From: a bacterium 210917-SL.2.15
GTDB lineage: Bacteria > Bacillota > Clostridia > Oscillospirales > Oscillospiraceae
Length of the DNA: 64,000 nt
NCBI GenBank assembly: GCA_020555605.1
Contig: JAJCJC010000002.1
Coordinates: forward strand, 184,627 to 248,626
Reading direction: 5' to 3'
Part shown: positions 33,228 through 50,911 of the stretch, in pieces
Position numbering within the stretch: position 1 is the first letter of the stretch
Layout of the letters: each line of letters opens with the position of its first letter
Made by a program: the position numbers and the translations under genes
The notes under the pieces: model-generated
Told to the model about the DNA's origin: nothing
Seen by the model: only the letters and a program-made list of their open reading frames with translations
Databases searched by the model: none

Positions 33228-33549
33228 GTGCGCGCCGCGCCAGCTCTTTTCTGCAGCCGAGCCGTACCGCAGCCACCCCACACAGCGGTGCCGGGAAACA
33301 GGACATGGTAACCGATAGTTGCCGCGCAGTTGTTAGAAAAGCAGGCCTATGAGATTAAAATGACAGCCAGAGGTGGTTCTTACGACGCTGGGTGAAAAAA
33401 CTCAAATAATACAGAAAAGCGACAGGGTTATCGCAGGAAAAAGTCGCAAAGCGGATCGTTGTGAGCCGGCAAGCAGCTATCGCATGCTCACCTGCTTTTG
33501 TCTTTTGCCGCAAAAACGATGCTGTTGTCGCAGATCCCTAATCCCGTTT
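33228..33549. other. Intergenic region without recognised gene
   Basis: About 320 bases between convergent genes. No hairpin with a U-run and no convincing coding frame; a short peptide stretch around 33335-33400 resembles decayed coding DNA but cannot be assigned. Confidence 0.5.
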
Positions 33550-34923
33550 TTATCCTTGGTCTGCCCTTTCAGCAGGATTCTCCTGCTCCGCAATATTGCG
33601 CTGCAGGTGGTGCATCACCCAGAAAAAAGCGGGCACCAGAAACAAACAGGCCGCTACCCAGGCTGTGGGATCCGTAAAACATACGCCTGTAAAGCCCACC
33701 CGGGGCGTAATCATTTGACTGACCACGCCGCGCCCTATCAGTTCAAACACTCCCGCCAGCACAGCCAGAGCGGAAAATCCCACGCCCTGGATACTGTAAC
33801 GGATCGTATTCAACGGCGAAAGCAGCCAATAAAACAGGCTGGTACAGATGAGGAAGCGGCGGACATAAGCGATCACTGTCCAATCCGTCAGACCGAACAG
33901 TACCATACCGATCCTTCCGCCCAGTGTACACAGAATCAAAGCCGCCAGCGCTGCATACACAAAGCCCACCAGAATGCTCTGCTTCAAGCCCTGATAGATG
34001 CGCTGATACTGCAGCGCGCCGATGTTTTGCCCACAATAGGTTGCCATGGCGGTACCCAAAGCGTCAAAAGGACACAAAAAGAGCTGCTGCACCTTACTGA
34101 CAACTGCGTAAGCCGCCACGGGCGTGCTGCCCAGCAGGTTGACGGCGCTTTGCAGCATCATCAGCCCGATGGCCGTAATCGAATACTGCAATCCCATGGG
34201 CAACCCGCTGCACAGCAGCGTTCCCATGCAAGCCAACGAGGGCTTCTCCTCTCCGGGCTGTAATTTCAAAATGGCAAACCGCCGCACCAGAAACCGCAGA
34301 CACAATACTCCAGACATCCCCTGGCCAATCACCGTGGCCAGGGCCGCGCCGCTCACGCCCAGGCCGAGCGCCACAATAAAGAGCAGATCCAGCACCACAT
34401 TCACCACCGTGGACACCACCAGAAACAAAAACGGCGTGCGGCTGTCTCCCAGCGCGCGCAGGATGGAGGCGCTCATATTGTAAAGCACTGTGCAGGGAAT
34501 CCCCAGGAAAATGATCAGCAGATATTGATAGGCCCCGGCATAGATTGCCTCCGGCGTGGAGAGCCACTGCAGAATCAATCTGCACAGCAGGGTTGTCGCC
34601 ACGGTCAACACCGCCGCCAACGCCGCAGAGAGCAGCGCGGCGTTGGCTACATAGCGGCGCATGCTTCTCTCGTCCCCCGCGCCAAAACGCTGGGCCACCG
34701 GAATGGCGAAGCCACAACACACACCGATGACAAAATTGATGACCAGAAACAGCACGCTGGCGCTGGCATTGACCGAGGACAGGGCATTCAGGCCCAGAAA
34801 TTTCCCCACGATGACCGCGTCCACCAGATTATACATCTGCTGAAACAGATTCCCCAAAAGCAGCGGCAGAGTAAACACCAAGATCAGGCGCAGCGGCGCG
34901 CCTTTCGTCATGTCAAATGTCAT
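33550..34923 (-). CDS. MATE-family efflux transporter (second)
   Basis: Twelve-helix exporter of 457 residues, distinct from the one at 3605. Family features: TKGAPLRLILVFTLPLLLGN start, QQMYNLVDAVIVGKFLGLNA helix, VPVAQRFGAG-like loop (here IPVAQRFGAGDER), and duplicated second half. ATG 34923 is chosen because TTGGAGAG lies seven bases before it; the ATG at 34938 has no such site. Substrate unknown. Stand-alone gene. Confidence 0.9.
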   Translation of the reverse strand: MTFDMTKGAPLRLILVFTLPLLLGNLFQQMYNLVDAVIVGKFLGLNALSSVNASASVLFLVINFVIGVCCGFAIPVAQRFGAGDERSMRRYVANAALLSAALAAVLTVATTLLCRLILQWLSTPEAIYAGAYQYLLIIFLGIPCTVLYNMSASILRALGDSRTPFLFLVVSTVVNVVLDLLFIVALGLGVSGAALATVIGQGMSGVLCLRFLVRRFAILKLQPGEEKPSLACMGTLLCSGLPMGLQYSITAIGLMMLQSAVNLLGSTPVAAYAVVSKVQQLFLCPFDALGTAMATYCGQNIGALQYQRIYQGLKQSILVGFVYAALAALILCTLGGRIGMVLFGLTDWTVIAYVRRFLICTSLFYWLLSPLNTIRYSIQGVGFSALAVLAGVFELIGRGVVSQMITPRVGFTGVCFTDPTAWVAACLFLVPAFFWVMHHLQRNIAEQENPAERADQG

Positions 34924-35276
34924 GTGCAATCTCTCCAAAAAATTTTAAAATCTTTGTCTATTATAACGAGACACATGAAATTTGCAAGGTACAGATTTGC
35001 CAGATCTTACCGTACCGGAGCGCTGGATTTTCGCTCTTTTGCTCTCTCACCGCGTATTCCTTCCCGCCCACTGGCAAAACGGGCAGCAAAACAATATGTT
35101 TTTATTGTTTTTTTGCGCCGATTGTGCTATTTTTAATAAAACCGCACCGTCTGATCCCACCCGGCGGGCGCATATGCGGTTCTGACTTCGCGGCATATCC
35201 AATAATATAGTCCAATGTGATACCATATTTTCGCCGTTGTGCGCGGCGCTGCGACTGTGAAAGGAGCATTCTGATC
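34924..35276. other. Divergent intergenic region between MATE and dapA
   Basis: Contains an AT-rich stem AAAACAAT/ATTGTTTT with a T-run (35090-35115) and a weak AATATAGT -10 about 75 bases before dapA. No lysine riboswitch or T-box could be recognised. Confidence 0.45.
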
Positions 35277-36167
35277 ATGAAAACACCCATTTTCACCGGT
35301 TCCGGTCTTGCAATGATTACCCCCATGAATGCCGATGGCAGCGTGAACTACGCTGAGATTGACCGTATCCTGGAAGATCAGCTGGCCAGCCATACCGACG
35401 CCATTTTGTCCTGCGGCACTACCGGAGAAGCCTCTACCTTGGACGACGAGGAACACCTGCAGGTGATCGGTCATGTGGTCAAGCGGGTAAACGGCCGTAT
35501 CCCCGTCATCGCCGGCACCGGCTCCAACAATACCGCCCACGCGGTCATGATGTCCAAGGGAGCGGCTGATCTGGGCGCCGACGCCCTGCTGGTGGTTACC
35601 CCATATTACAACAAAACCAGCCAGGCCGGTCTAATCGCCAGCTACACCGCCGTGGCCGATGCCACAGAACTGCCCGTGATCATGTACAACGTCCCCTCCC
35701 GCACCGGCGTAAACATTGCCCCCGAAACAGCCCGGGTTCTGTCCGCGCATCCCAAAATCAACGCCATCAAGGAAGCCAGCGGCAACATCAGCCAGGTAGC
35801 CCAGATCGCAGCGCTGTGCGGCGACGATCTGAATATCTATTCCGGAAACGACGATCAGATTGTCCCCCTGCTTGCCCTGGGTGGCAAGGGCGTCCTGTCT
35901 GTGGCCGCCCATGTGGCCCCGCAGCAGATTCACGACATCTGCCAACTCTGGTTCGACGGCAAAGCCGCCGAATCTGCCGCGCTGCAGTTGCAGCTGCTGG
36001 AGTTGTGCAATGTTCTGTTCTGCGACGTGAATCCCATTCCGGTGAAAGCCGCCATGAGCATGCTGGGCTACAATGCCGGGCCTTGTCGTCTGCCCCTGGT
36101 TGCTCCCAGTGAAGCTAATCTGGAAAAAATTTGCGCAGCCTTAGAAAAATACGGTTTGCTGGGTTGA
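35277..36167 (+). CDS. dapA: 4-hydroxy-tetrahydrodipicolinate synthase
   Basis: Class I aldolase-type lyase joining pyruvate and aspartate semialdehyde, the first committed step to diaminopimelate and lysine. Protein of 296 residues: GTTGEASTLDDEEH with the catalytic Thr pair, PYYNKTSQAGLIASY, MYNVPSRTGVN with the catalytic Tyr, and the Schiff-base lysine in NAIKEASGN. ATG 35277 with AAAGGAG about ten bases before; the longer frame lacks family similarity. Stand-alone gene ended by a terminator. Confidence 0.95.
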   Translation: MKTPIFTGSGLAMITPMNADGSVNYAEIDRILEDQLASHTDAILSCGTTGEASTLDDEEHLQVIGHVVKRVNGRIPVIAGTGSNNTAHAVMMSKGAADLGADALLVVTPYYNKTSQAGLIASYTAVADATELPVIMYNVPSRTGVNIAPETARVLSAHPKINAIKEASGNISQVAQIAALCGDDLNIYSGNDDQIVPLLALGGKGVLSVAAHVAPQQIHDICQLWFDGKAAESAALQLQLLELCNVLFCDVNPIPVKAAMSMLGYNAGPCRLPLVAPSEANLEKICAALEKYGLLG

Positions 36168-36455: not shown

Positions 36456-36494
36456 AAAAAGAGGCTGATTCAAAAAGAATCGGCCTCTTTTTCT
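36456..36494 (+). terminator. Terminator of the tRNA operon
   Basis: GAGGCTGATTC (36461-36471) pairs with GAATCGGCCTC (36477-36487), flanked by A-run and T-run. Confidence 0.9.
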
Positions 36495-37024
36495 AACTTT
36501 TTGAGCAACCATCAACTGAAACACTCTCTAACAGGACAAGAGGAAAGCCGTTCTTAACAGATAAAAATTACTCCAACTGCTTTGAGCAGATAGGTCTTAC
36601 ATTACACTGACGCAAAAGTTACTGAAATTTCCGCGCATAAAGAGGGTTGTACCAAATGTAGTACAACCCTCTTTTTTATTTTATCCAACTGCCCTGGCCG
36701 TCCCTTCCTTTACCGGCGGCCCTTTTGTTATCAGAGGAGACAGTGGATGCGGCGGAAGTGGACGGCTGCCCCCTGCGGAATAGGCTGCCAAATCGGGAAT
36801 ATACGTTGTAGATACGGGCACTGTACTCCATGTAGCAAACAATATTCACAAATTGAAACAACCAATATGAAACCAACCTGCGCCGACTGGTATCAGCCGG
36901 CGTTTTACAATTTTCCCAAGTTTTACATGAGCATGATTTTGAATTTTACAAAGCCCTTTTATAATAAATGTGCTATTTCAATGGTATTTGTTTCACATCA
37001 CCTATTCAACTTCAGGAGTATTTT
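36495..37024. other. Gene-free region next to the tRNAs
   Basis: About 530 bases with no supported gene other than the orphan terminator. Composition is more AT-rich than neighbours and contains broken frames on both strands, as expected of remnants at a tRNA-proximal insertion site; no attachment repeat could be demonstrated. Confidence 0.5.
36639..36682. terminator. Orphan terminator downstream of the tRNAs
   Basis: Perfect 14-base stem AAAGAGGGTTGTAC (36639-36652) / complement (36661-36674), T-run on the plus strand and A-rich left arm. No intact gene ends here; a short minus-strand frame ending at 36676 reads like the decayed C-terminus of a basic protein. Confidence 0.75.
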
Positions 37025-38212
37025 ATGCAAATTTTTCACCATTCTCAACTTTGGCGCCGCATGTTTGCAGTTTTTATCTTACTGTTTACCGTTGTACTGG
37101 CCCTCATGCCGCAGAGTGAGCATTTGTTTTCCGGCCTGACCAGCAACACCATTACCTATGAACCCGGAAGGGTCACAGCAGTGGAGACCGAAAACCTTTC
37201 CCCCAGCCCCCTCAAGGGCGGCCAGATGTTGGGCGATCAGACCTTAAGCATCGCATTGGACAATGGCGAAATGGTGCGCCTGACAAATTATCTCACCGAT
37301 ACACACAACATCCTTGCAGAAGAGGGCCTGAAAGTAATCGTGTGTGTGGATGCGCCAGAAGGCGTAGAACCGTATTATACCCTATATCAATATGACCGCA
37401 CCACAGGCGTTGCGGTCATTCTGGTAATTTTTCTCCTGCTGATGCTGCTGGTAGGTGGAGAAAAAGGATTCTCCGCTGCTCTGGCACTGGCATTCTCCAT
37501 GGTGTTCCTGATCCGGGTTACCATCCCAGCTATCTATCAGGGCAGTTCCCCGGTGGGTGCAGGGCTGGCGGCAGTGTTGATTGCAACGGCGGTAACGATC
37601 TTCCTGTTGTATGGCTTTTCGGTCCGCGGAGGCTTGGCTATCGCCGTAACTCTGGCCGGTGAATGCTTATCCTGTCTGCTGTTCCTGCTGTTTTCCTCGC
37701 TACTGCATTTGACGGGCTTCCAGAGCAGTGACGCGGAAAGCCTTCTGGTGGCGGCACAGAATACCGGTATGGATCTCTCTACGGTACTGTTTGCCGCAAC
37801 GATGATCGCCTCCCTCGGCGCCGTCATGGATGTGGCGGTCTCGCTTCTGTCAGCATTATGGGAAATCCATGAAACAGATCCTCTGCTCCCCGGCAAACGG
37901 TTGTTTGCCTCTGGCATACACATTGGCCGGGACATGATCGGCACCATGAGCAATACGCTGGTTTTTGCCTTTGCAGGCGGTTCCCTGACAACCCTTCTGG
38001 TGCTGATCTCCTACGGGACCCAGCCCAACCAGTTGCTTCATTCTGACTATGTCGCCTTGGAACTGGCCCACGGTCTGTGCGGAACTTGTGCCGTGATCCT
38101 GACGGTGCCGCTGGCATCCCTGGCTGCGGCGATCGTGTTTCCGCAGCTGAAAAATTCCCGAATAATCTCGGTTATACATAAAAGAAATTTTAAAAAAGGA
38201 GCGAACGTATGA
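37025..38212 (+). CDS. YibE/F-family membrane protein
   Basis: Integral membrane protein of 395 residues of the YibE/F family (function unknown in general; a few members affect amino-acid or exopolysaccharide transport). Layout: one N-terminal helix (residues about 9-28), an extracytoplasmic domain of about 80 residues, then about seven helices including VAVILVIFLLLMLLVGGEKG and the family core MIASLGAVMDVAVSLLSALWE. Start ATG 37025 after CAGGAG. Its stop overlaps the start of the giant surface-protein gene (ATGA), so the two are translationally coupled, an unusual partnership. Confidence 0.85.
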   Translation: MQIFHHSQLWRRMFAVFILLFTVVLALMPQSEHLFSGLTSNTITYEPGRVTAVETENLSPSPLKGGQMLGDQTLSIALDNGEMVRLTNYLTDTHNILAEEGLKVIVCVDAPEGVEPYYTLYQYDRTTGVAVILVIFLLLMLLVGGEKGFSAALALAFSMVFLIRVTIPAIYQGSSPVGAGLAAVLIATAVTIFLLYGFSVRGGLAIAVTLAGECLSCLLFLLFSSLLHLTGFQSSDAESLLVAAQNTGMDLSTVLFAATMIASLGAVMDVAVSLLSALWEIHETDPLLPGKRLFASGIHIGRDMIGTMSNTLVFAFAGGSLTTLLVLISYGTQPNQLLHSDYVALELAHGLCGTCAVILTVPLASLAAAIVFPQLKNSRIISVIHKRNFKKGANV

Positions 38213-41200
38213 AACGAAAGATGAAACATTTTGTGTCTTTGTTTCTAGTGCTGATATTGACACTGCAGCTGTTTGCAGCGGTACCGGCATCGGCGATCGG
38301 CACTGCAGAGGAGCCTTCCGACACCCTTGAGGAAATATCCGTTCAGGAAGAGGCTGAGGAGCCGGAAGCAGGGCTGGGCGAACCGCAGCTACCCAAACAG
38401 ACCACCTTTGCGCTAAACGGCCAAGGAACTGCGGAAGCACCTTATCAGGTCACCAACGAGACAGACTGGAACACCGCAGTGGCTGCAATCAACAGCGATA
38501 GCGCAACATACAGCAAACAATACTATGAAATCACTGCCGACATCCAATTCACAAAAGCTGTGACGCCTGTGGCTGTGTTTTCCGGTACGCTGGACGGCGG
38601 CGGCCACACAATGACCGGACTGACGGTGGACAGCGATACAAACGAAGCAGCACTGATTGCCACCAACAACGGAACCATCCGCGATCTGGGCCTGGCACAG
38701 GTGCGGCTGTCCGGCCCAGCCGACCAATCGAAAATCAAACGTGCGTCGTTTGCGGTCTATAACAGGGGCACGATTTCCGACTGCTATGCCACCGGTGATC
38801 TGTCCGGCGGCTGGCGCACCGGCGGCATTGTAACAGAGAACTACGGCAAAGTTGAAAACTGTTATTTTGTGGGCAGCGTCGCGGGAAGATGGGAAACCGG
38901 CGGCATAGCAGCCTGGTGTGCAGATAACAAAAGCAACGCAATCCAGAACTGCTATGCTCGCACCGATGCAGAGGCGCTGGTCAGCACTGTCGGCGTTGTC
39001 GCCGGATACGCCTATGCCGGCACAACCCTGATGGGCAACGTGGCTCTGGGGGGAGATGTACTCAGCCCCGGCTCGGTAGGCCGCTTGCTGGGCAAGGAAA
39101 AGAGCACTCCCATCACCTATCAAAACAATCTGGCCTGCACAAACATACTGGTCAACAACAGCGCTGTTTCCAGCAATGCAGACAATATGCAGGGTCTGGA
39201 TAAAACAGCTGAAGAACTGAAGCAGCAGAACACCTATACCGCCATCGGCTGGGACTTTTCCTCTGTATGGGCAATGGATGAGACACTGGGCCGACCCGTG
39301 CTGCAAGGCTGCCCGGAGGTTCAGGACGCTTTGGAGCGGGAAATGCCGGACGGCAAGGGAACAGAGGAGTCGCCGTACCTGATTTCCAACGCGGAAGAAC
39401 TCACGCTGGCCATTCAGGCCATCAATGCCGGCGGCGCATATGCGGAAGCATACTACCAGCTGGACGCAGATATCATGCTGAAAAAATCCATTCCCTCCAT
39501 TCTCCGCCTGGGCGGCACACTGGACGGCGGCGGGCATACCATCGACGGCTATACTCTGTCTACCAAGTATGATTGCGACGCCCTGATTCTCTGCAATGAG
39601 GGCACTGTCAAGGCCCTGGGGCTGACTAATGTGAACGTGACCGGCCCCAATACGCCCGAGGCCAGCCGGCGGGGCGGTTTATGCTACCAGAACCGCGGTA
39701 CGATTGAACAGTGCTATGTGAAAGGCAGCGTCTCCGGCGGCCACCGGAGCGGCGGTATCACAGCCGAGAATTACGCTACGATTTCAAACTGCTATTTTAT
39801 GGGCAGCGTGACCGGGCATTGTGAGACCGGCGGCATCGCGGCCTGGAACCAGGCCACCGGCGTGGTGGAAAACTGCTATGTGTCCGGAAGCTTCACCACT
39901 GAAACCAACAACAGCGGCTGCATTGGCGGCTACGGCTATACAAACACCCGTTATGAGGGTAACGTGGTACTCAGCGGCAGCACCCTGTCCACGGCCAACG
40001 ACCGGAATCATGCCCGGATCTGTGGCCGCAACAACGGCAATCCCACATTTTCCAACAACCTGTCCTGCACAGATGTGACTATCAATGGCAAAACCGTAAC
40101 CGGCGGTGCAGCAAACAATATGCAGGGCCTGGATAAAACAGCTGAAGAACTGAAGCAGCAGAACACCTATACCGCCATCGGCTGGGACTTTTCCTCTGTG
40201 TGGGCAATGGATGAGACACTGAACCGCCCGGTGCTGCTTGAGTGCCGGGAAGCGCCGGAAGCGCCGGATCTGGACGATCCTGCGCACGACAAACAGCATT
40301 ACACAGTCGCCAGTCCCGACGGCAGTGTGGAAGCCTATGTTTACGTCAACGCCTATGGTGAGCTGGGCTACTCCGTAACACTAAGCGGCACACCGGTACT
40401 GCTCCGCTCCTCCCTGGGACTGACAATGGATAGCGTGGAGATGGGGAAGAATGCCACGCTGGGTGAGCCGAAAACTACCACCGTTCAGGAAAGCTACGAA
40501 ACCCGCGGCATGCACACTCAGGCGGAGAACCACTACAATCAGTCCGCGTTTCCGGTAACCAGCGGCGAAAAGACGATAACCCTGAACGTACGGGCCTATA
40601 ACGATGGCATCGCCATTCAGTATGACCTGCCGGAGGGCGCACACACCATTTCCGGGGACAACACCCGCTTTACCATTCCCACCGACGCCAAAGCATTCTA
40701 TCAGTACGGCGACGGCTCCAATTACGAGGGTATTAAAAACATGCAGGTGCCCACCGAGACCTCCCTGGTCTCCGCCATCGGCGAAGAGCGCCTTCTGTGC
40801 ACCTTGCCCACCTTCGAACTGAAAGAGAAAGCAGCTTACGTGTGCATTACCGAAGCCAATCTTTACGACTGGTCCGGCATGGGTCTGCGCTCCGAGGGGG
40901 AAGGCGTGCTGAAGGCAGAATACTGGGACACCAACGGCACGACTTTCACCACAGAGGAAGATTCACCATGGCGTGTGGCCATTATTGCCGACAACTTGAA
41001 TGATTTTGTCAACAGCGACATGGTAACCAACGTATCCGATCCTATGGAGGGTGCGTTGTTTGCAGACGATACCAGCTGGATCCAGCCGGGTCGCTCCGTG
41101 TGGACTACCCAGGGCGGCGGCGCCTCCACGGTGGAAGGCTATAAGGAATACAGCGACCATGCCTCCCAACTGGGGATCGAGTTCAATCTGATCGAGGCCC

Positions 41201-44200
41201 GCAACGGGTTTGGCGACACGCTGGATGAGCAGTTTGCCGCCATCAAGGAAATTGTGGATTACAGCGCAGGTCTGGAGAATCCTGTTAAAATATGGCTGTG
41301 GGAAGACGCCCCCACCAGCCGCTATACCGGCGGTCTTTATACCGAGGAAAACGCCCGGGACTTCCTGTCGCGCTGCCAGAAGGCCGGCGTGGTTGGTGTC
41401 AAGATCGACCACATCCACAGCGAGTCCCCCGACAAGGTCAGTTTTTATGAAGATTTCACCCGGCTGGCCGCCGAGTACCACATCATGGTGAGCTACCATA
41501 ACCCGATGAAGCCCACCGGCCTTTCCCGTACCTATCCCAACGAAATGACCCGTGAGGCCATCCGGGGCATGCAGTATCAGTGCAACCCCAACGAGAACGC
41601 CATTCTCCCGTTTACGCGCCTGCTGGCCGGCGGCGCAGACTACACGCCGATGAACTTCTCCAATTCCGGCAAACTGGGCCGCGCCAGCTGGGTTCATATG
41701 CTGGCCAATACGGTCATCATGACCTCCAGCTACCTCCAGCTCAGTGAGAATCCCAAGAATATGGTGAATCAGGTTTACACCGATTTCATTAAAAACCTTC
41801 CCACAGTGTGGGACGAGACCATTGTACTCGAACAGTCCGAGATCGGCGAAGCAGCAGCATTCCTGCGCCGCAGCGGCGAGGACTGGTATCTGGCCGTGCA
41901 GAATTCGGCTCACAGTGAACAGGCAATGACCTTCGATCTGGATTTCCTGGGCGAAGGACAGTGGTATGCCGACATCTATTACGACAACATGAATTCCGCT
42001 GCGCAGATCCAGCGCCGCGTGGAACAGGTGACCAAGGACAGTCAACTGGAAGCGCAGATCCGCTCCGGCGGCGGCTATGTGGTGCGCCTGACGCAGGATG
42101 AGGTCATCTATGACAGCGATAAGGACAAGGTATTTGAGATCAACACTGCAGAGGATCTGGGCCTGATCCGGGAACATCCCGACGCTACCTTCAACCTGAA
42201 CGCAGATCTGACCCTGAGCGGAGAATTTACCCCCATTCCGATGCTGAACGGCACGCTGAACGGGAACGGCCATACCATTTCCGGCCTCCAGTTCACCGGC
42301 ATGGATGCGTCGGCAGCGCTGATCCTTCAGAACAACGGCACCATCCGGCAGCTGGGCCTGACAAACGTATATATGGAAGGCCCCTACACCGCTGACAACA
42401 GCTGGCGCGCGTCGCTGTGTGTAAAAAACTACGGCACCATCGAGGAATGCTATGCCCTGGGTACTGTCACCGGCGGCCACCGCACCGGCGGGCTGGTCAG
42501 TGAGAATCACAATGTCATTCGCAACTGCTATTTCATCGGTACGCTGGAATCCAACTTTGAAACCGGCGGCATCACCTCCTGGAATCGAGAAGGTTCCGCA
42601 ACGGTGGAGTACTGCTATGCCTCCGGAGATTTCACTTCCGCAGGAAACAATATGGGCTTCATCAGCGGCTATGCCTATGGCAGCACGCGGATGACAGGCA
42701 ATGTCGCGCTGAGCGGCACACTCACCGGCACCAAAAACCTGGCCCGGATCTGCGGCCGCAACAACGGCGTGGATGAGAATACGGTGTATCATAACAATCT
42801 GGCGTGCCGGGACATCACCATCAACGGCAAGCCCGTAACCGGCGGCGCGGCCAACAACAGGGACGGCGCAGACAAGACCACCGAGGAGCTGAAGCAGCAG
42901 AAAAACTATGCCGCCATCGGCTGGGACTTTTCCTCTGTGTGGGCCATGGACACGACGCTGGGCCGCCCGGTGCTCAAACAGGTGAAGGAGATCGCCTGCG
43001 AACAGCCTGTACTCCAGAACAGCGTTTCCCTGGCGCCCGGTTCGGATGAGACCAGCCGGAACCTGACCTGGTACGCCAACGATGAGGCAGACGGCATCGT
43101 TTACTGGGCGAAAGAAAGCGATCTCGTGAATGGCGCCATGCCGGAGGGCGCCAAGCACGTCCAAGCTTCCGTGACGGAAGCCAACAAGTCCGGCTATTAC
43201 TCCAATCAGGCAACTATGTCCCAGCTGGAGCAGGGCACCACGTATGCCTACCAGTTGGTCAATGGTGCCAAGCAGTCCCCGGTCTATACCTTTACCACAG
43301 AGGACGCTTCCAACGGATTTACCTTCCTATTCATGGGCGATCCGCAGCTGGGTGCCAGCGGCAACCTGATCAGCGACAACAGCGGTTGGAACACTACGCT
43401 ACGTGCAGCGGCAGCCAAAGTTCCGGATGCGGCATTCCTGCTCTCCGCCGGTGATCAGGTGAATACCGCCAACAACGAGGGACAATATACAGCCTATCTC
43501 GATCAGCAAGTACTCTACAGCCTGCCGGTGGCTACGGTCATTGGCAACCATGATAACTCCAGCAATGCCTATGGCCAGCATTTCAATGTACCCAATGAGA
43601 GCGGAGAGTACGGAACCACCGATGCCGGCAGCGACTACTGGTTCCGTTATGGCAACGTTCTGTTCCTGGTGCTCAATGTCAACAATATGAGCGATGCGGA
43701 GCATAGAATGTTTATGGAAAAGGCGATGGCACAGAATCAGGATGCAGAGTGGAACATTGTCACAATGCACCATTCGGTGTACTCCGTGGCAAACCATGCC
43801 TTGGATGATGATATTATCCAGCGCCGGAATACACTGGTACCCATTTTTGAAGAACTGGGAATCGATGTGGTTCTTCAGGGCCACGACCATGTGTATGTGC
43901 GCACGTATATGATGGATGACTTTAATGCGGTCACCGAATCTGAAAAGTATACTGACCAAAATGGCGACGGAGTTCCCGATGCAGTCACCGATCCGGACGG
44001 TATTCTGTATGTGACTGCAAACTCCGCTTCCGGCAGCAAGTACTATAACATCAAAACAGAGGAGCAGTTCCCTTATGCCGCGGTGAAGAGCCAGGAGCAC
44101 GTCCCCACCTATTCCGAGGTAACAATTACCGACACAGAATTTTCCATTGTGACCTACCGGGTGAGCAACGGCTCGGTAGTGGATGCCTTCACCATCCACC

Positions 44201-46548
44201 GTACGGAAGAGGAAACGCCGGACGCGCCGGTGGTCGAAGGGTTTAAGAACGGCGCATCTAGCCTGGATCTGACAGAAATCGGACGTTATGACTCCAACAT
44301 GACCAACGCTGACGGCGGCGTGATGGAGATCGTGGACTACAACGAAACCACCGGATATGCCTACGCCATCAACGGCCAGACCGGACGCCTGTCTGTAATC
44401 TCTCTGCAAGATCTGCAGGCCCGTGAAACCATCGAAATGCTGGAAGGTACCGCCATCGATATCAAATCCCTGGTTGAAGCAAACGGCTTTGTCTACGGTG
44501 ACATGACTTCCGTAGCCGTGTCTCCCGACGGCAAGACCCTTGCCGCCGCTCTCCAGGCCAAGGGATATGCCGATGCAGGCCGTGTGGCACTATTCACCTG
44601 CAATTCAGATGGCACTCTGACATTTGTGCGGGCTATTGAGGTTGGCGTGCAGCCGGATATGCTTACCTTTACCCCCGACGGCAGCAAAATTCTGACCGCC
44701 AATGAGGGTGAACCCCGCATGGGTTATGCCAGTGGAGTCTCCGATCCCGCCGGCTCTGTGACCATTATCGATACTGCTACCGGAAGCGCCAATACAGTAG
44801 GATTTGATGCCTTCGATGGCGAGAAGCGTCAGGAGCTTGTGAAGGCAGGCGTTGTGCTCATGAAAAATACCCAGCCTTCTGTGGATCTGGAGCCGGAGTA
44901 CATTGCATGCACCAATGGAATGGCCTATGTGACACTACAGGAAGCTAACGCCATCGCGGTGCTGGATCTGGCTCAAGGCACTTTTACTGGTATTTACTCC
45001 GCCGGCTTTGAGGACTACAGCAAGGCGCCAGTGGACATTGACAAGGGAGACAAAGCATACGCGCCTAACACCTATGCAGGACTCAAAGGCATCCGGATGC
45101 CCGACGGCATTGCGCTGTATACGGTGGGCGATACCAATTACCTGCTGACCGCCAACGAAGGCGACGCCCGCGAATGGGCTAAATACTCCAATGAAAATGA
45201 GGTCGGCAAGGGCCATGCATCTCCCGCCGGTAACATCACCGGAGGCATGGTGAACGGTAAGGTAGTCTACTTCAAGAGCAGCGACTTTGACGGCCTGGAT
45301 CCCCAGACGGATTATCTGTTCGGCGGCCGCTCCTTCACCCTTTATCGAGTGGATGGCAGCGCACTGACCGAGGTCTTTACCAGCGGCAGTGACTTCGAAG
45401 CCAAAACTGCCTCCTATCTTTCGGATTACTTTAACTGTTCCAACGATGACCGCTCCATTGACGACCGTTCCGGCAAAAAGGGTCCTGAACCGGAAACCGT
45501 CACGGTGGGCAAAGTGGACGGCAGAAGTTATGCTTTTGTGACGCTGGAGCGTATCGGCGGCGTCATGGTCTACGACATTACCGATCCAGCCAATGTGGCA
45601 TATGTTAACTATATAAACAGCCGTGACTTCTCTGAGGATGTGGCGGCAGACGATTCGCCCGAAGGATTGAAGTTTATTGATGCCAAGAGCAGTCCCACAG
45701 GAAACGCACTGCTGCTGGCGGCCTGTGAGGTGGGCGGCACCGTAGCCGTCTACGAACTGGAAGGGCGCAATACATCCACCGGCGGTTCCGGCAGTACTAC
45801 CACTTATTATACCATTACCGTGACCCAGCGTGAAGGCGGCAGAATCAATCCGGGTTCTATCCGTGTTGCCCGCCGCGGCGACAAAACCTTTACCATCACT
45901 CCTGACGAGGGCTATGAAATTGCCGACGTACTGGTGGACGGCAAGAGCGTTGGCTCGGTTCGTTCTTACACATTCGAGAACGTGATGACGCAGCACACAA
46001 TCACCGCCGGGTTTGTAAAGACTGACGAGTCCAGCCCCGTGAGCAGCTTTACCGATGTTAAGGTCACTGATTGGTTTGCTGACGCTGTTCAATATGTGGT
46101 GGACAACCATTTCATGAACGGTACTTCCGGGACTTCTTTCTCCCCCGGCGGCAATATGACTCGTGCCATGGTCATGACAGTTTTGGCACGGATGGCCGGC
46201 GTTGATACCACCACCAGTTCTGTTTGGTACGAAGTGGGCCGCGCTTGGGCCATGGAAAACGGTATCTCTGATGGAACCAACATGGATGGGAAAATTACCC
46301 GGGAACAGCTGGCCACCATGCTGTATCGATATGCAAAGCTGACCGGAGCCGATGTCTCCATAACTGCTTCTCTGGATCGCTTCCAAGATGCCGATTGCGT
46401 TTCCAGCTACGCAACGGACGCTTTGCAGTGGGCTGCTGCCGTGGGAATTATCACCGGTAGGCCCGACGGTACGATCGCCCCCCAGGCCGGAGCCACCCGC
46501 GCCGAGGCCGCCGCTATGCTGATGCGGTTTTCCAAGTTGAATAAATAA
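38209..46548 (+). CDS. Giant SLH-anchored surface protein with GH97, metallophosphoesterase and choice-of-anchor I domains
   Basis: Protein of 2,779 residues, exported and cell-wall bound. Order: signal peptide 1-29 (cut after ASA); two GLUG-like repeat domains at about 65-374 and 379-680; a GH97 glycosidase at about 693-1293 (candidate nucleophile Asp1067 in GVKIDHIHS, candidate Glu1112 in YPNEMTREAIRG); a third GLUG-like domain 1304-1594; an FnIII/purple-phosphatase N-domain-like stretch 1598-1697; a calcineurin-type phosphoesterase 1701-2001 (GDPQLG, GDQV, GNHD, MHH, GHDH); a choice-of-anchor I beta-propeller 2004-2521; an InlB-type repeat 2533-2604; three SLH domains 2610-2779. GH97 is best known from Bacteroidetes. 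The substrate is probably an alpha-linked glycan carrying phosphate (inference). RBS AAAAAGGAG. Confidence 0.88.
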   Translation: MKRKMKHFVSLFLVLILTLQLFAAVPASAIGTAEEPSDTLEEISVQEEAEEPEAGLGEPQLPKQTTFALNGQGTAEAPYQVTNETDWNTAVAAINSDSATYSKQYYEITADIQFTKAVTPVAVFSGTLDGGGHTMTGLTVDSDTNEAALIATNNGTIRDLGLAQVRLSGPADQSKIKRASFAVYNRGTISDCYATGDLSGGWRTGGIVTENYGKVENCYFVGSVAGRWETGGIAAWCADNKSNAIQNCYARTDAEALVSTVGVVAGYAYAGTTLMGNVALGGDVLSPGSVGRLLGKEKSTPITYQNNLACTNILVNNSAVSSNADNMQGLDKTAEELKQQNTYTAIGWDFSSVWAMDETLGRPVLQGCPEVQDALEREMPDGKGTEESPYLISNAEELTLAIQAINAGGAYAEAYYQLDADIMLKKSIPSILRLGGTLDGGGHTIDGYTLSTKYDCDALILCNEGTVKALGLTNVNVTGPNTPEASRRGGLCYQNRGTIEQCYVKGSVSGGHRSGGITAENYATISNCYFMGSVTGHCETGGIAAWNQATGVVENCYVSGSFTTETNNSGCIGGYGYTNTRYEGNVVLSGSTLSTANDRNHARICGRNNGNPTFSNNLSCTDVTINGKTVTGGAANNMQGLDKTAEELKQQNTYTAIGWDFSSVWAMDETLNRPVLLECREAPEAPDLDDPAHDKQHYTVASPDGSVEAYVYVNAYGELGYSVTLSGTPVLLRSSLGLTMDSVEMGKNATLGEPKTTTVQESYETRGMHTQAENHYNQSAFPVTSGEKTITLNVRAYNDGIAIQYDLPEGAHTISGDNTRFTIPTDAKAFYQYGDGSNYEGIKNMQVPTETSLVSAIGEERLLCTLPTFELKEKAAYVCITEANLYDWSGMGLRSEGEGVLKAEYWDTNGTTFTTEEDSPWRVAIIADNLNDFVNSDMVTNVSDPMEGALFADDTSWIQPGRSVWTTQGGGASTVEGYKEYSDHASQLGIEFNLIEARNGFGDTLDEQFAAIKEIVDYSAGLENPVKIWLWEDAPTSRYTGGLYTEENARDFLSRCQKAGVVGVKIDHIHSESPDKVSFYEDFTRLAAEYHIMVSYHNPMKPTGLSRTYPNEMTREAIRGMQYQCNPNENAILPFTRLLAGGADYTPMNFSNSGKLGRASWVHMLANTVIMTSSYLQLSENPKNMVNQVYTDFIKNLPTVWDETIVLEQSEIGEAAAFLRRSGEDWYLAVQNSAHSEQAMTFDLDFLGEGQWYADIYYDNMNSAAQIQRRVEQVTKDSQLEAQIRSGGGYVVRLTQDEVIYDSDKDKVFEINTAEDLGLIREHPDATFNLNADLTLSGEFTPIPMLNGTLNGNGHTISGLQFTGMDASAALILQNNGTIRQLGLTNVYMEGPYTADNSWRASLCVKNYGTIEECYALGTVTGGHRTGGLVSENHNVIRNCYFIGTLESNFETGGITSWNREGSATVEYCYASGDFTSAGNNMGFISGYAYGSTRMTGNVALSGTLTGTKNLARICGRNNGVDENTVYHNNLACRDITINGKPVTGGAANNRDGADKTTEELKQQKNYAAIGWDFSSVWAMDTTLGRPVLKQVKEIACEQPVLQNSVSLAPGSDETSRNLTWYANDEADGIVYWAKESDLVNGAMPEGAKHVQASVTEANKSGYYSNQATMSQLEQGTTYAYQLVNGAKQSPVYTFTTEDASNGFTFLFMGDPQLGASGNLISDNSGWNTTLRAAAAKVPDAAFLLSAGDQVNTANNEGQYTAYLDQQVLYSLPVATVIGNHDNSSNAYGQHFNVPNESGEYGTTDAGSDYWFRYGNVLFLVLNVNNMSDAEHRMFMEKAMAQNQDAEWNIVTMHHSVYSVANHALDDDIIQRRNTLVPIFEELGIDVVLQGHDHVYVRTYMMDDFNAVTESEKYTDQNGDGVPDAVTDPDGILYVTANSASGSKYYNIKTEEQFPYAAVKSQEHVPTYSEVTITDTEFSIVTYRVSNGSVVDAFTIHRTEEETPDAPVVEGFKNGASSLDLTEIGRYDSNMTNADGGVMEIVDYNETTGYAYAINGQTGRLSVISLQDLQARETIEMLEGTAIDIKSLVEANGFVYGDMTSVAVSPDGKTLAAALQAKGYADAGRVALFTCNSDGTLTFVRAIEVGVQPDMLTFTPDGSKILTANEGEPRMGYASGVSDPAGSVTIIDTATGSANTVGFDAFDGEKRQELVKAGVVLMKNTQPSVDLEPEYIACTNGMAYVTLQEANAIAVLDLAQGTFTGIYSAGFEDYSKAPVDIDKGDKAYAPNTYAGLKGIRMPDGIALYTVGDTNYLLTANEGDAREWAKYSNENEVGKGHASPAGNITGGMVNGKVVYFKSSDFDGLDPQTDYLFGGRSFTLYRVDGSALTEVFTSGSDFEAKTASYLSDYFNCSNDDRSIDDRSGKKGPEPETVTVGKVDGRSYAFVTLERIGGVMVYDITDPANVAYVNYINSRDFSEDVAADDSPEGLKFIDAKSSPTGNALLLAACEVGGTVAVYELEGRNTSTGGSGSTTTYYTITVTQREGGRINPGSIRVARRGDKTFTITPDEGYEIADVLVDGKSVGSVRSYTFENVMTQHTITAGFVKTDESSPVSSFTDVKVTDWFADAVQYVVDNHFMNGTSGTSFSPGGNMTRAMVMTVLARMAGVDTTTSSVWYEVGRAWAMENGISDGTNMDGKITREQLATMLYRYAKLTGADVSITASLDRFQDADCVSSYATDALQWAAAVGIITGRPDGTIAPQAGATRAEAAAMLMRFSKLNK
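39184..39304 (+). repeat. Direct repeat inside the giant gene, copy 1
   Basis: About 120 bases nearly identical to 40119-40239, encoding the end of each GLUG-like domain (KTAEELKQQNTYTAIGWDFS and SVWAMDETL). A diverged third version ends near 42970. Confidence 0.85.
40119..40239 (+). repeat. Direct repeat inside the giant gene, copy 2
   Basis: Partner of 39184-39304, 935 bases apart, differing at only a few positions. Recent duplication or gene conversion; recombination would delete one domain in frame (935 is not a multiple of three, but the two copies lie in the same frame only if the distance is; see finding). Confidence 0.6.
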
Positions 46549-46957: not shown

Positions 46958-48100
46958 ATGGCATATTGTCGTTTTTGCGGCGCGCTTTTGGCCGAGGGGG
47001 CGCGCTTTTGTCATCTCTGTGGAAAGGAAGTAACCGCTGCGCCCCGCTGCCCGCAATGCGGCGCGCTCCTGCCCGAAGGGAGCCGCTTTTGCAGCGCCTG
47101 CGGCGCAGCCGTCGCCAGCGCATCTTCGGCGGTAGCAGGCGCTGTGCCGCACCATCAGGGCCGCCCGCCCGAAATTCCTCTGGGCCGGGGCCGCACCATC
47201 GCCATCCCGGCGCCTCAGGTATCCCCTGCGCCTCCGCCCCAGCCCGTGCCGCCGCCGGACAGTGCGCCCCTCGCCGGGGTATACGTTCCTGCTGTGCAAA
47301 ATACGGGCGATTTCACCGGCTCCGTGCAGCGCTTTTTCGGCGCAGACGGCAGCCGCTACACATTCCAGGGTGCCGGAATGTACGGCTTTTTGGAGCCGTT
47401 TTCCATGAACTATACCGACGGGCAAGGACCTATTGCTAAGGGCGGTGGGACGTGGTTTTATCGGTCCGGCGGGCAAAGCATGGAGGTACCGGCCCTGCAG
47501 GGAGCACAGATTCTCTCCTCCGCTCCTGAAGGGATGTACGTCTACATGGCCCCGACCATCTACTTCATCTCCCCCGACGGCGCCATGCGCCCCTTTATGG
47601 ACGCCGCCGAAACGCTGACTGACATGGTGTGCTATCAAAACTGGCTGTTTGTCACCTATCTGGGACCTTTTGAGGAAAACCCACAGGAAAACGGCGGCAC
47701 ACTGTGCTGCGACCGCTCCTATGTGATCGTGTATGACCGCGCCAGCGGCGATGTGGCCGCTCTGCTGGAGCGCTGTGCCGGCGTATATTACATCGACCGG
47801 CACGTCATCCTCCTGTGCGACCTGCTGGACAGTGGCGAGATCTGCCGGAATGTCTATAAAGTCCCCATCCATGGCTGGACCGAAAACGGTTTCAAAACAC
47901 TCTCCAACTATGTGGGCCGCATTCGGGGAAGCCTGCCCTTCTCCCGCCTGCTCCTGGACAGCTGCGGCAGTCGGAGCAATTGGAAAAATCCCTCGGAGTG
48001 CACTGCCAATCTGCGCCAGTGCGACTGGGCCAACAAGCGCCTGGCCTATCAGCACAAGGATGCGCTGCTCTGGCGCGACTTTGCGGGGAATCCAATTTAA
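46958..48100 (+). CDS. Double zinc-ribbon protein with unknown C-terminal domain
   Basis: Protein of 380 residues. Two tandem zinc ribbons: CRFCGALLAEGARFCHLCG (4-22) and CPQCGALLPEGSRFCSACG (31-49), then a Pro/Ala-rich linker to about 105 and a globular beta-rich domain (KGGGTWFYRSGG, MYVYMAPTIYFISPDG, LCCDRSYVIVYDRASGD) of about 270 residues that resembles propeller-like DUF5050-type modules. No signal peptide or membrane segment. Likely cytoplasmic; no function assigned. RBS AGGAAGGA. Confidence 0.75.
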   Translation: MAYCRFCGALLAEGARFCHLCGKEVTAAPRCPQCGALLPEGSRFCSACGAAVASASSAVAGAVPHHQGRPPEIPLGRGRTIAIPAPQVSPAPPPQPVPPPDSAPLAGVYVPAVQNTGDFTGSVQRFFGADGSRYTFQGAGMYGFLEPFSMNYTDGQGPIAKGGGTWFYRSGGQSMEVPALQGAQILSSAPEGMYVYMAPTIYFISPDGAMRPFMDAAETLTDMVCYQNWLFVTYLGPFEENPQENGGTLCCDRSYVIVYDRASGDVAALLERCAGVYYIDRHVILLCDLLDSGEICRNVYKVPIHGWTENGFKTLSNYVGRIRGSLPFSRLLLDSCGSRSNWKNPSECTANLRQCDWANKRLAYQHKDALLWRDFAGNPI

Positions 48101-48114
48101 AAACAGCAGGAAAA

Positions 48115-48155
48115 CGCCTCGCGGCTTCGATTGGGCCGCGAGGCATTTTATTTTT
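48115..48155. terminator. Bidirectional terminator
   Basis: GCCTCGCGGC (48116-48125) pairs with GCCGCGAGGC (48135-48144), T-run on the plus strand and GTTTTCC on the minus strand; separates the zinc-ribbon gene and sbcC. Confidence 0.85.
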
Positions 48156-50911
48156 CATATAACGATTTCCACCCGGCTTCCGCCGGAGCGGTCTTTTTTC
48201 ACGATGATCTGCCGTTCAATGCATTCTTTCAGTTCCGCCACATGGGAGATCACCCCTACCAGACGGTTTCCCGCAGAAAGATCCCCCAACGCCCTGAGCG
48301 CCTGCTGAAGGGATTCCTCGTCCAGCGATCCGAAGCCCTCGTCCACAAACATGGTGTCCAGCTGTACGCCGCCGGCGCTGGACTGGATCTCATCGGACAA
48401 TCCCAGCGCCAGAGCCAGCGCCGCCTTAAAGGATTCTCCACCCGAGAGGGTTTTCACACTGCGTTCCGAGCCGTTGTAATGATCGATCACATCCAGTTCC
48501 AGGCCGCTCTGGCTGCGCTGATTGTCCGCATTGCGGCGGCGTTTGAGTTCATACTGCCCGCCGCTCATTACCATCAGGCGCAGATTGCTGCGCCGCAGCA
48601 CCCGATCAAAGCAGGCCGACTGCACGTAGGTTTCCAGCATGATCTTTTCCTTTCCGGAAAGTGTGCCGTTCGCGGTGTCCGACAAGGCCTTCACCCAGCT
48701 CCACTCCCGCTCCGCTTCTGTCAGCGCGCCAGTCTGGCTGGCCAGCGCATCCCGTACGGAGCGATCAGCCAGAAGGCAGGCCGCTGTATGCTCTCGTTCC
48801 CCCCGCAGTTCCCTTTGCCGCGCCTGCAGAGCAGCCTGCTCCGCCTCCAGCGCTTTTCGTTCCGGCGCCGGAGCTTCCCGCAGCTGTGTTTCCAGTGTAC
48901 GCGCACGAGTTTCGTGTTCCTCTAATTCCCGGCGGCAGGATTCCCAAGCCTGCCTCGTCTCTTCTTCCCGGCGGGCAAGCCGCTCCTTTTTGTGCCGAAG
49001 CCCCTCTACATACTGTTGGGCCTCCGCCTGACTGCCAAATTCCAGCGTTTGTACCAGGGCCGAGCGATCCCTTTCCAACTGCTGCGCCGCCAGACGCAGG
49101 CGCAAAACCTCCTGCTCCAGCGCCTGCTGTGCGCTGCGGCGCTGCTCCAACATCTTCTCCTGTTGAGGCAACGTTTCTTCCAGCTGCTTGTACTCCGAAG
49201 CCTGCGCTTCCAACTCCGTCCGGCGGCGCTCCCGTTCTTCCCATTGCGCCCGGGTCTGCGCCAAAACGCGCTCCAGCGTCTCCCCCGCTTGCAGCAATGC
49301 CCCGGCGCGCCGCATGTACTGGGCCTGCAGCTGTTCCAGACGTTCCGCCGCCCGCCCGGCAGCCAGGCTGGCTTCTCCGGCGAGGCGCTCCGCAGCAGAG
49401 GCCTCCTTCTGAAGTGCTTGCAGCGCAGCCTGCGTGGGCGCCGCCTCCGGCAAAGGCGCCGGAACGGGGTGGTGTGGTGCGCCGCAGACCGGACACGGCA
49501 CTCCCTCCTGCAGAGACTGTGCCAAAAGGCCCGCCTGAGCGTCCAAAAACAGCCGCTCCTGCCGCTGCGCCCTACTGCGCGCCGCTTCAGCAGAAGACCG
49601 CTCATGCACATACGTCTCCTGCGCCGCAGCACACTGTTCATGCGCGCTGCGACAATCATGCTCCAGCCCCGACAGCTCCTGCAGCTCCTGCAGGCGTCTG
49701 TGCAGCGTTTCCTGCGCCGCTGTTTCCCGCGCCAATTCCACTGCAGCAGCGCGCAGTTCCTGACACCGTGCGGTCAGCGCCGCGAGATTCGCCGCTTCGT
49801 TTTCCTGTACTCGACGGCCGGCAGCGCTTTGTTCCTCCTGTTCGGCCAGGATTCGGCGCGTTTGCTCTCTTTCTGCATCCAAGGCAGCCAAACGCGCATA
49901 CTCTTCCAAACGCCCTTCCGCCGCAGCGATCTGCACTGCCAGAGCCTCGCTACCTTCATTTTCCCGCCGGGCCTGTTCATAGTCCTCCCGGCAACGGATC
50001 TGCACCGGTTCCAGCCGTGCAATTTCCAGCTTTGCTTTGTTTAAGGCCCGGACTGCCTCCTCCCGGGCCGCAGCCCGTCCCAGCGTCTGATGCACAGCGG
50101 CCAACTGCTCTTCCACCGCTTCGGCAGCCGTTTCTTCCGCTGAGGCACGCGTCTCCAATTCTTCCACCAAATGCTCCGCCAATGCCAGCGCCGCGGACGG
50201 ATCGGCATGTTCTCCCTGCGCGCACAGCGTGCTCCATTCTTCTTCCACCGGAGTGCCCGGCGCACCGCGCAGCGCTGCAATCCCCCGGGCCATCGCGCTA
50301 TGCAGCGCTGCACAGTTCTCTGCGCGCCGCCTTGTTTCGGCCCGTAGCTGTTCCTGCAGGGTCTGATAGCGGCCGGTGCCGAACAGATCGCGGAAAATCT
50401 TGCTCCGCTCCTCCGTTTTTGCATGCAGCAATTTTAAAAAGGCGCCCTGGGCGATCATAGCCACCTGGGAAAACTGGCTGCGGTCTAGCCCCGTCAGAGC
50501 CACGATGGCCCGCGTCACCTCCCGGGCCTTGGTCACAGGCGCCCGGCCGTCGGAAAAGGTAAGCGTGGCGTCGGCGCGCTCGAGCACCATACCCTCGCCC
50601 CGCACCTTGGGCCGTTCATATTCCGGGTTGCGGCGGACGGTATACTGCTTTCCGCGGTATAGAAATTCCAATTCCACAAAAGTGGGGGTGCTGGGGGCGG
50701 CGTATTTGCTGCGCAGCATATCCGCTTCCCGCGCCGCGCCGCTGGCCTCGCCATAAAGCGCGAAGGTAATGGCGTCAAACAGGGTCGTCTTGCCCGCACC
50801 GGTGTCACCGGTGATGAGATATAACCCGCTGCTGCCCAGACGGGACAGATCGACCACCGTCTCTCCCGCGTAGGGTCCGAAGGCAGACAGGGTTAATTTC
50901 GTCGGTCTCAT
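48155..50911 (-). CDS. sbcC: Exonuclease subunit SbcC (Rad50-like ATPase)
   Basis: ATPase partner of SbcD in the nuclease that opens hairpins and processes DNA breaks. Protein of 918 residues: N-terminal ATPase half with Walker A GDTGAGKTTLFDAI, long coiled coils rich in Arg/Glu/Ala/Gln, zinc-hook CPVCGAPHH near residue 470, second coil, and the C-terminal half with signature LSGGESFKAALALALG and Walker B DTMFVDEGFGSLDEESL. ATG 50911 overlaps the sbcD stop by four bases and has AGGAGG upstream. Many alternative-frame open stretches here are artefacts of codon bias. Confidence 0.95.
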   Translation of the reverse strand: MRPTKLTLSAFGPYAGETVVDLSRLGSSGLYLITGDTGAGKTTLFDAITFALYGEASGAAREADMLRSKYAAPSTPTFVELEFLYRGKQYTVRRNPEYERPKVRGEGMVLERADATLTFSDGRAPVTKAREVTRAIVALTGLDRSQFSQVAMIAQGAFLKLLHAKTEERSKIFRDLFGTGRYQTLQEQLRAETRRRAENCAALHSAMARGIAALRGAPGTPVEEEWSTLCAQGEHADPSAALALAEHLVEELETRASAEETAAEAVEEQLAAVHQTLGRAAAREEAVRALNKAKLEIARLEPVQIRCREDYEQARRENEGSEALAVQIAAAEGRLEEYARLAALDAEREQTRRILAEQEEQSAAGRRVQENEAANLAALTARCQELRAAAVELARETAAQETLHRRLQELQELSGLEHDCRSAHEQCAAAQETYVHERSSAEAARSRAQRQERLFLDAQAGLLAQSLQEGVPCPVCGAPHHPVPAPLPEAAPTQAALQALQKEASAAERLAGEASLAAGRAAERLEQLQAQYMRRAGALLQAGETLERVLAQTRAQWEERERRRTELEAQASEYKQLEETLPQQEKMLEQRRSAQQALEQEVLRLRLAAQQLERDRSALVQTLEFGSQAEAQQYVEGLRHKKERLARREEETRQAWESCRRELEEHETRARTLETQLREAPAPERKALEAEQAALQARQRELRGEREHTAACLLADRSVRDALASQTGALTEAEREWSWVKALSDTANGTLSGKEKIMLETYVQSACFDRVLRRSNLRLMVMSGGQYELKRRRNADNQRSQSGLELDVIDHYNGSERSVKTLSGGESFKAALALALGLSDEIQSSAGGVQLDTMFVDEGFGSLDEESLQQALRALGDLSAGNRLVGVISHVAELKECIERQIIVKKDRSGGSRVEIVI

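Follow-up and report, generated by a model that had tools for sequence, protein, structure and literature searches.

Pairing of a YibE/F membrane protein gene with exported phosphoesterase genes in a clostridial lineage

Why should the gene of a membrane protein overlap the start of a gene for a giant surface protein? The question is raised by a 64,000-nucleotide stretch of DNA from the Oscillospiraceae bacterium 210917-SL.2.15 (contig JAJCJC010000002.1, positions 184,627 to 248,626; hereafter the window), where a YibE/F family gene runs into the gene of a 2,779-residue protein that carries S-layer homology (SLH) domains, GH97 glycosidase domains and a phosphoesterase. A first-pass annotation took the giant for a surface machine acting on phosphorylated alpha-glycans, with YibE/F as its export or transport partner. 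By gene content and neighbourhood, the pair is one version of a broader clostridial module that joins YibE/F to an exported metal-dependent phosphoesterase, and the partner of the YibE/F gene is the phosphoesterase, not GH97. Genome comparison shows that the two are paired, that the pairing recurs in related genomes, and that it persists across unrelated phosphoesterase folds.

Both open reading frames were confirmed. The YibE/F frame (37025-38212, plus strand) encodes 395 amino acids from an ATG at 37025, and its stop codon (38210-38212) and the giant's start (38209) share four nucleotides, ATGA, which bears out the overlap described earlier. Directly upstream of the overlap we read AAAAAAGGAG, a ribosome-binding site, and the overlap suggests that the two genes may be translationally coupled. 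The pair comprises:

37025..38212, plus strand: YibE/F family membrane protein, 395 aa (open reading frame; PF07907, E 1.4e-69)
38192..38201, plus strand: ribosome-binding site AAAAAAGGAG of the giant, within the 3' end of the YibE/F gene (read directly)
38209..46548, plus strand: giant SLH surface protein, 2,779 aa (open reading frame, Pfam, homologs)

A scan of genome contigs gave three loci (L001-L003) in which a YibE/F gene, whose product is 66-76% identical to that of the window, is followed by a purple acid phosphatase (PAP)-like phosphoesterase without GH97. L001 has a second start, 21 nt past the overlapping one and with a ribosome site of its own, and in L002 and L003 the genes are separated by about 30 nt rather than overlapping. 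We then searched 150 genomes of the family of genome G003 with the window YibE/F at E<=1e-20, and found it in 49; absence here means no match to the window protein at that threshold, and distant copies may be missed. Together with 53 places from this search and two more copies in genome G001, L001-L003 make up 58 related loci, from which G022:C22 and G090:C31 (where an alkaline phosphatase adjoins by coordinates) were left out. A phosphoesterase gene adjoined or lay near YibE/F in 51 of the 58 (50 by script, and L081 by Pfam), and 41 of the 58 had it on the same strand within 500 nt by script. The partners were PAP-like enzymes (15 loci), PHP-type giants (18), alkaline phosphatases (14) and other calcineurin-type enzymes (4); because the PAP-like and other calcineurin-type enzymes form one superfamily, we count three unrelated folds. 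Partners occurred both upstream and downstream of YibE/F, and six of the 51 (five PHP-type giants and one calcineurin-type enzyme) were on the opposite strand. Other genomes thus keep YibE/F together with an exported phosphoesterase; the earlier annotation had suggested a search for the gene pair elsewhere.

Several assignments required judgement. The script found no partner in L052, L066, L067, L075, L081, L085, L089 and L095. Among these, L081 was counted as its neighbour is a Metallophos giant by Pfam, and L066 was not, its 443-aa frame on the other strand resembling the PHP giants without their motifs. L065, split over several frames, was included with a gap of 678 nt; one intervening gene was accepted in L079 and L080 (gaps of 827 and 897 nt); and L074 and L083, which carry GNH and GHxH motifs, were placed by their similarity to L073.

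The alkaline phosphatases, of about 520-560 aa, provided a test in which the enzyme was not chosen by neighbourhood. Seventeen genes in the 49 YibE/F-bearing genomes scored above the PF00245 cut-off, and 14 of these lay within about 1.2 kb of YibE/F, the other three being in G098, G142 and G060. The enzyme was found in 17/49 YibE/F-bearing genomes vs 5/101 other family genomes (Fisher p 4e-6); the latter comprise 3/80 and 2/21, and the gene in G122 is 470 bases from a contig end. In the 14 loci where alkaline phosphatase is the partner, it was upstream of YibE/F on the same strand every time. Pfam confirmed all five of these that were run, and 13 of the 14 were above the PF00245 cut-off in the genome search, which did not cover the genome of L080, the remaining one. 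Rough binomial estimates of how often genes would adjoin by chance, which assume a gene number and independence, are not used as evidence.

The PHP-type giants gave weak Pfam PHP matches and, by profile, weakly matched the PHP end of DNA polymerase III alpha (E 0.036). Their His/Asp/Glu metal motifs, which are of the PHP type, were invariant in the 12 giants aligned of the 18, and the other six had TDHS/SDHS, NHPG and DNH motifs, with no LHxH match in L065 and L076. The count of this group is partly circular, as it was defined among YibE/F neighbours. The giants beside YibE/F in L047-L051, L054-L058, L061, L069, L070 and L072 are mostly 1,600-2,800 aa long, several with SLH domains, and they combine the PHP-type metal motifs with an OB/DUF5689 region and poor Pfam coverage. 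The group looks like a little-described family of surface phosphoesterases.

Individual genomes offered further examples. In Lachnospira eligens ATCC 27750, an annotated metallophosphoesterase gene overlaps YibE/F (proteins WP_041688979 and WP_012740827). A database giant 78% identical to that of the window (P0002) and a YibE/F protein 83% identical (P0123) each have a longest contig of 26,473 bases, which suggests that they lie on one contig. The genome of L003, Pseudoflavonifractor sp. An44, also carries a second PAP-type gene (G003:C50; PF16656, 1,200-aa frame) about 13 kb from the pair. The GH97 part of the giant was found in only 4 of 400 family genomes at E<=1e-30. Only in one of these, G518, is it 84% identical; there the contig stops at GH97, and three copies of YibE/F (31-36% identical) are on other contigs. 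A tight link between GH97 and YibE/F was considered and rejected; L001-L003 pair YibE/F with a phosphoesterase that has no GH97.

Domain searches of the giant recovered most of what had been read from it by eye. Pfam matched GH97_N (E 1e-45), Glyco_hydro_97 (6e-44), GH97_C (2e-20), Pur_ac_phosph_N (2e-14), Metallophos (1e-14), choice_anch_I (3e-69), SLH (6e-18) and Glug (7e-10), and Pfam and NCBIfam together confirmed GH97, the PAP-type N-terminal domain, the calcineurin-type phosphoesterase, choice-of-anchor I, SLH and Glug. The PAP-type domain, which precedes the phosphoesterase, was absent from the earlier list. The InlB-type repeat on that list was not recovered by any Pfam model at E<=0.01, and the stretch concerned (residues 2530-2605) was read by eye; some homologs of the giant are listed with PF18998. 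Our own profiles, read on the database protein P0001, gave the order GLUG, GLUG, GH97, GLUG, phosphoesterase, choice-of-anchor I, SLH, with three GLUG-type units of about 300 residues each, mutually 46-53% identical, in agreement with the GLUG-like repeats noted before. The SLH domains are C-terminal. The features of the giant are:

38209..38301, plus strand: putative N-terminal signal peptide, about residues 1-31 (translation read by eye)
38437..39363, plus strand: GLUG-type unit 1, residues 77-385 (own profiles)
39370..40284, plus strand: GLUG-type unit 2, residues 388-692 (own profiles)
40294..42102, plus strand: GH97 domains, residues 696-1298 (Pfam, structure match, own profiles)
41407..41409, plus strand: Asp1067 codon; the residue aligns with the nucleophile of retaining GH97 (structure match, alignment)
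41572..41574, plus strand: Gln1122 codon; the residue stands where GH97 has its acid/base Glu (alignments)
42175..42999, plus strand: GLUG-type unit 3, residues 1323-1597 (own profiles)
43021..43896, plus strand: PAP-type N-terminal domain and calcineurin-type phosphoesterase, residues 1605-1896 (Pfam, alignment)
44326..45759, plus strand: choice-of-anchor I domain, residues 2040-2517 (Pfam, NCBIfam)
46024..46545, plus strand: SLH domains, residues 2606-2779 (Pfam, own profiles)

The PAP-type ligands of the phosphoesterase are conserved. In an alignment of the window protein with the first 44 homologs passing E 1e-60, Asp1711, Asp1749, Asn1780, His1781, His1854, His1892 and His1894 were kept in 44-45 of the 45 sequences. 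The Tyr of the GDxxY motif is the mark of true purple acid phosphatases. That position holds Asn1752 (GDQVN), as in 44 of the 45 sequences, and because of this replacement we call the enzyme PAP-like and not a true purple acid phosphatase, despite its N-terminal domain and the metal-ligand motifs of its Metallophos domain.

The earlier statement that no described system has this design proved too strong for the giant. Domains were given for the best 120 of the 210 homologous proteins found, and among the matches listed P0001-P0015 share the core GLUG-GH97-GLUG-phosphoesterase; because P0001 is 99% identical to the window protein, this amounts to 14 other database proteins (P0002-P0015). Within the same matches, GH97 was given only for P0001-P0015 and P0035, and P0001-P0003 were those of P0001-P0015 that also have choice-of-anchor I. 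Many listed relatives consist of phosphoesterase, choice-of-anchor I and SLH, with PF09992, LTD or PF13385 replacing GH97. For example, P0023 of Flavonifractor sp. An91, of the choice-of-anchor I type, matches the window giant in its C-terminal half, with phosphoesterase, choice-of-anchor I and SLH, and lacks the GLUG-GH97-GLUG block. Four relatives (P0028, P0033, P0034 and P0052) have two tandem PAP-like phosphoesterase stretches per chain. By its domains, the giant is not unique but a mosaic on an exported phosphoesterase base, and we infer that it is a surface-anchored phosphoesterase, in which GLUG, GH97 with its Gln1122, and choice-of-anchor I are most likely binding or spacing modules.

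The YibE/F protein itself belongs clearly to its family (PF07907, 234.8 bits against a cut-off of 27.2), and at E<=0.01 PF07907 was the sole Pfam match, with no match to the TerC profile. Class 9 of TCDB holds poorly defined systems. The YibE/F family is entered there as 9.B.141, according to an excerpt of PMC3924187. Compared with the family at large (PF07907; TCDB 9.B.141), the clade of the window is distinguished by its coupling to phosphoesterase genes. In the AlphaFold prediction, an N-terminal helix is followed by an OB-like beta domain and a helical domain that resembles RND proteins and SecDF:

37136..37399, plus strand: YibE/F residues 38-125, a beta domain that the AlphaFold model shows as OB-like, probably outside the cell
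37541..38164, plus strand: YibE/F residues 173-380, membrane helices with a likeness to the RND/SecDF core (predicted models)
37829..37831, plus strand: codon of Asp269, in model helix 251-284 (alignment, model)

Two AlphaFold models, of proteins 22% identical, suggest, by fold alone, that YibE/F combines an OB domain with an RND/SecDF-like membrane core. RND proteins have a proton-relay Asp in their fourth helix. Asp269 was kept in 113 of 114 YibE/F sequences, and in one non-significant alignment, a third alignment, it falls at about the register of this residue. The predicted helical core and the approximate placement of the Asp are what YibE/F would have in common with SecDF and the RND superfamily (AcrB, MtrD, CusA); it differs from them in being half their size, in having a small OB domain in place of large periplasmic domains, and in the lack of significant sequence similarity. 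Remote profile homology to SecD, SecF or RND proteins was sought and rejected (hhalign probability about 1% or less), and Foldseek with both models gave no match at E<=0.001, the top rows being an ABC transporter and ribosomal OB folds.

Neighbours of YibE/F elsewhere in the phylum point in a second direction. PF07907 was found in 58 of 199 genomes of the phylum, and among 60 loci sampled from 73 rows of PF07907 matches only 12 had a phosphoesterase neighbour (alkaline phosphatase 7, PAP-like 3, PHP-type 2). For the remaining 48 loci we scanned 58 immediate same-strand neighbour proteins, and FUR was the commonest family (7/58). The Fur-family gene immediately precedes YibE/F, on its strand, in six loci from diverse genomes (L141, L142, L144, L147, L154 and L157), and lies downstream in L146; three of these proteins run against NCBIfam matched Fur models below their cut-offs. 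The FUR-linked YibE/F proteins are mutually 40-78% identical. Among 58 control genes from these loci, each some 4.5 kb distant, FUR occurred at most once and FeoB_N once; 25 of the 128 control families were displayed, and FUR was not among the families with two or more members. ZnuA was upstream of YibE/F in L156 and L161, which count as nearly one event because their YibE/F proteins are 86% identical. A P-type ATPase with no substrate assigned was found in L178, and the three FeoB_N neighbour matches included FeoB (L146) and Era (L163). Aminotransferases (5) and Cys/Met-metabolism enzymes (4) also recur, with no clear bearing. In the window, no Fur box was found near the pair, the total of two matches (<=3 mismatches) comparing with 0.96 expected. 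Six of 28 plasmid matches were opened; no phosphatase gene was annotated next to the tandem YibE/F genes on Priestia megaterium and Limosilactobacillus reuteri plasmids, nor alongside YibE/F on a Chloroflexota and a Cellulomonas plasmid, and the Photobacterium record carries no annotation at the site.

YibE/F appears to be partnered with the reaction of the exported phosphoesterase, or with its cofactor, and not with one protein fold. All of the partner phosphoesterase types are metal-dependent. Our preferred reading, held tentatively and with somewhat less than even confidence, is that YibE/F is a proton-driven transporter that serves exported metallophosphoesterases, perhaps by supplying metal; a role as export or transport partner, as the first-pass annotation had it, would fit the predicted fold. 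YibE/F would use proton flow to move something that these enzymes need, and the cargo we favour, on the analogy of the TerC proteins, would be a divalent metal ion destined for the active sites. We favour metal supply because it covers both the phosphoesterase neighbours and the Fur and ZnuA neighbours, whereas phosphate handling covers only the former; the neighbour evidence for it is a correlation. The TerC proteins MeeF and MeeY of Bacillus subtilis metalate exported enzymes, as stated in the abstract of PMC10550928. The likeness would lie in the proposed job, membrane transport on behalf of exported metalloenzymes; TerC works broadly together with Sec, YibE/F would serve one operon partner, and as YibE/F has no TerC profile match the comparison is one of function, not of membership. 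TerC itself was found in 2 of the 150 family genomes (E<=1e-8). In these genomes, whose completeness is not given, 122 lacked a SecDF match at E<=1e-10 and 148 a TerC match at E<=1e-8; among 14 well-known control genomes, SecDF was matched in 12 and TerC in 8. It is conceivable, though we think it unlikely in so specific a form, that YibE/F proteins are pared-down RND-type exporters of half the usual size, driven by protons, which bring divalent metal to the exported phosphoesterases of the neighbouring genes. They would then form a metalation system reserved for surface metalloenzymes, whatever the client's fold, in Clostridia without TerC.

The rival that survives best, itself an unlikely one, is that YibE/F transports a product, either inorganic phosphate or the dephosphorylated substrate, released outside the cell by its partner enzyme. 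Apart from their need for metal, the PAP-like enzymes, alkaline phosphatases and PHP enzymes share the hydrolysis of phosphate esters (their function being taken from family knowledge), and a Na/Pi cotransporter gene adjoins YibE/F in L137. Product transport leaves the Fur-family and ZnuA neighbours unexplained, however, and RND-type proteins are generally outward pumps or translocation motors, not phosphate importers.

Somewhat less probable still is that YibE/F acts, by proton flow, as a SecDF-like motor or chaperone that aids export or folding of the partner exoenzyme. The absence of detectable profile similarity to SecD or SecF argues against this, and the partners are specifically phosphoesterases, some of which, such as the alkaline phosphatases, are of ordinary size. 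The idea that YibE/F replaces SecDF was also rejected, as SecDF was present in 9/49 YibE/F-bearing and 19/101 other family genomes.

We consider it doubtful, more so than either transport of a product or aid to export, that the two genes do not work together and are only co-regulated neighbours, for instance as members of a phosphate-starvation or metal regulon. This would be consistent with the pairing being mostly absent outside the family (12 of 60 loci have it), with the many loci in which the genes do not overlap, and with the opposite-strand cases. However, the pairing outlasts both the exchange of phosphoesterase folds and changes of gene order, which is unusual for a passive neighbour.

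A last proposal, that of the first-pass annotation, is that GH97 and the phosphoesterase act jointly on phosphorylated alpha-glycans. All three GH97 Pfam models (N, catalytic and C) score above cut-off, and the best solved match, over 594 residues, is the retaining alpha-galactosidase 3a24, with whose nucleophile Asp1067 aligns; this Asp, which we take to be Asp415 of BtGH97b, is kept in the window and in 16/16 homologs, and the 5e1q residue aligned to it is Gly. At the position of the acid/base Glu (presumably Glu470 of BtGH97b), six residues beyond Glu1116, the giant has Gln1122, as do all 16 homologs aligned and G518. Glu is kept in two other GH97 proteins from the same family of genomes (L247 and L249), and the motif search gave no match in a third (L248). 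Two near-identical PDB chains, 8wg0 and 8wg1, have Glu and Gln, respectively, at this position. The giant has the domains and nucleophile of the retaining GH97 alpha-galactosidases (PDB 3a24 and 5e1q), its best sequence match, but differs from them in the replaced acid/base Glu and in its fusion into a multi-domain surface protein. The simplest reading of these residues is that the domain serves for binding, or turns over special substrates only. P0001-P0015, P0035, L246 and the window protein form a GH97 subfamily with a natural Gln for the acid/base Glu and the nucleophile Asp kept, which may be a pseudo-enzyme or an enzyme for activated substrates. The joint action on phosphorylated alpha-glycans, including a variant in which GH97 cleaves only glycosides with a good leaving group such as glycosyl phosphates, is very improbable: the core kept together in 15 listed proteins, the invariant Asp1067 and the general ability of retaining glycosidases without acid/base to act on activated substrates speak for it, while the conserved Gln where two other GH97 from the same family of genomes keep Glu, the pairing of YibE/F with phosphoesterases that lack GH97, and the absence of any phosphoglycan gene among the neighbours looked at all speak against it.

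The surroundings of the pair in the window are ordinary, with genes for a pseudouridine synthase, MatE, a dihydrodipicolinate-synthase-like and an SbcC/Rad50-like protein (32262-36167 and 48155-50926). Upstream are tRNA-Leu and tRNA-Met, the only RNA elements found by Rfam at gathering scores, and then two terminator-like hairpins from a consensus scan that found four hairpins vs 2.0 expected:

36456..36492, plus strand: terminator-like hairpin after the tRNA genes (consensus scan, weak evidence)
36639..36674, plus strand: second terminator-like hairpin, upstream of YibE/F (consensus scan, weak evidence)

A promoter scan found no sigma-70-like promoter on the plus strand between 36400 and 38300. 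The double zinc-ribbon protein gene 3' of the giant (46958-48100) probably lies outside the operon, because it is about 410 nt away.

In a literature search that left most subscription journals and all preprints outside its reach, we found neither a YibE/F function in print nor a paper linking YibE/F to phosphatases. Two YibE/F-like genes are among the decreased-fitness genes of Staphylococcus aureus in human blood, in a passage of a 2026 study (PMC13227979), and a YibE/F gene and a metallophosphoesterase gene stand in one list of glycerol-responsive genes of L. reuteri, in an excerpt of PMC10459645. YibE/F is a widespread membrane family, and the neighbour rule described here ties it, in this lineage, to exported metallophosphoesterases. 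A rule that outlasts the exchange of the enzyme's fold is a testable clue to YibE/F function, and if the cargo is metal, it would bear on how surface enzymes are loaded with metal in bacteria without TerC.
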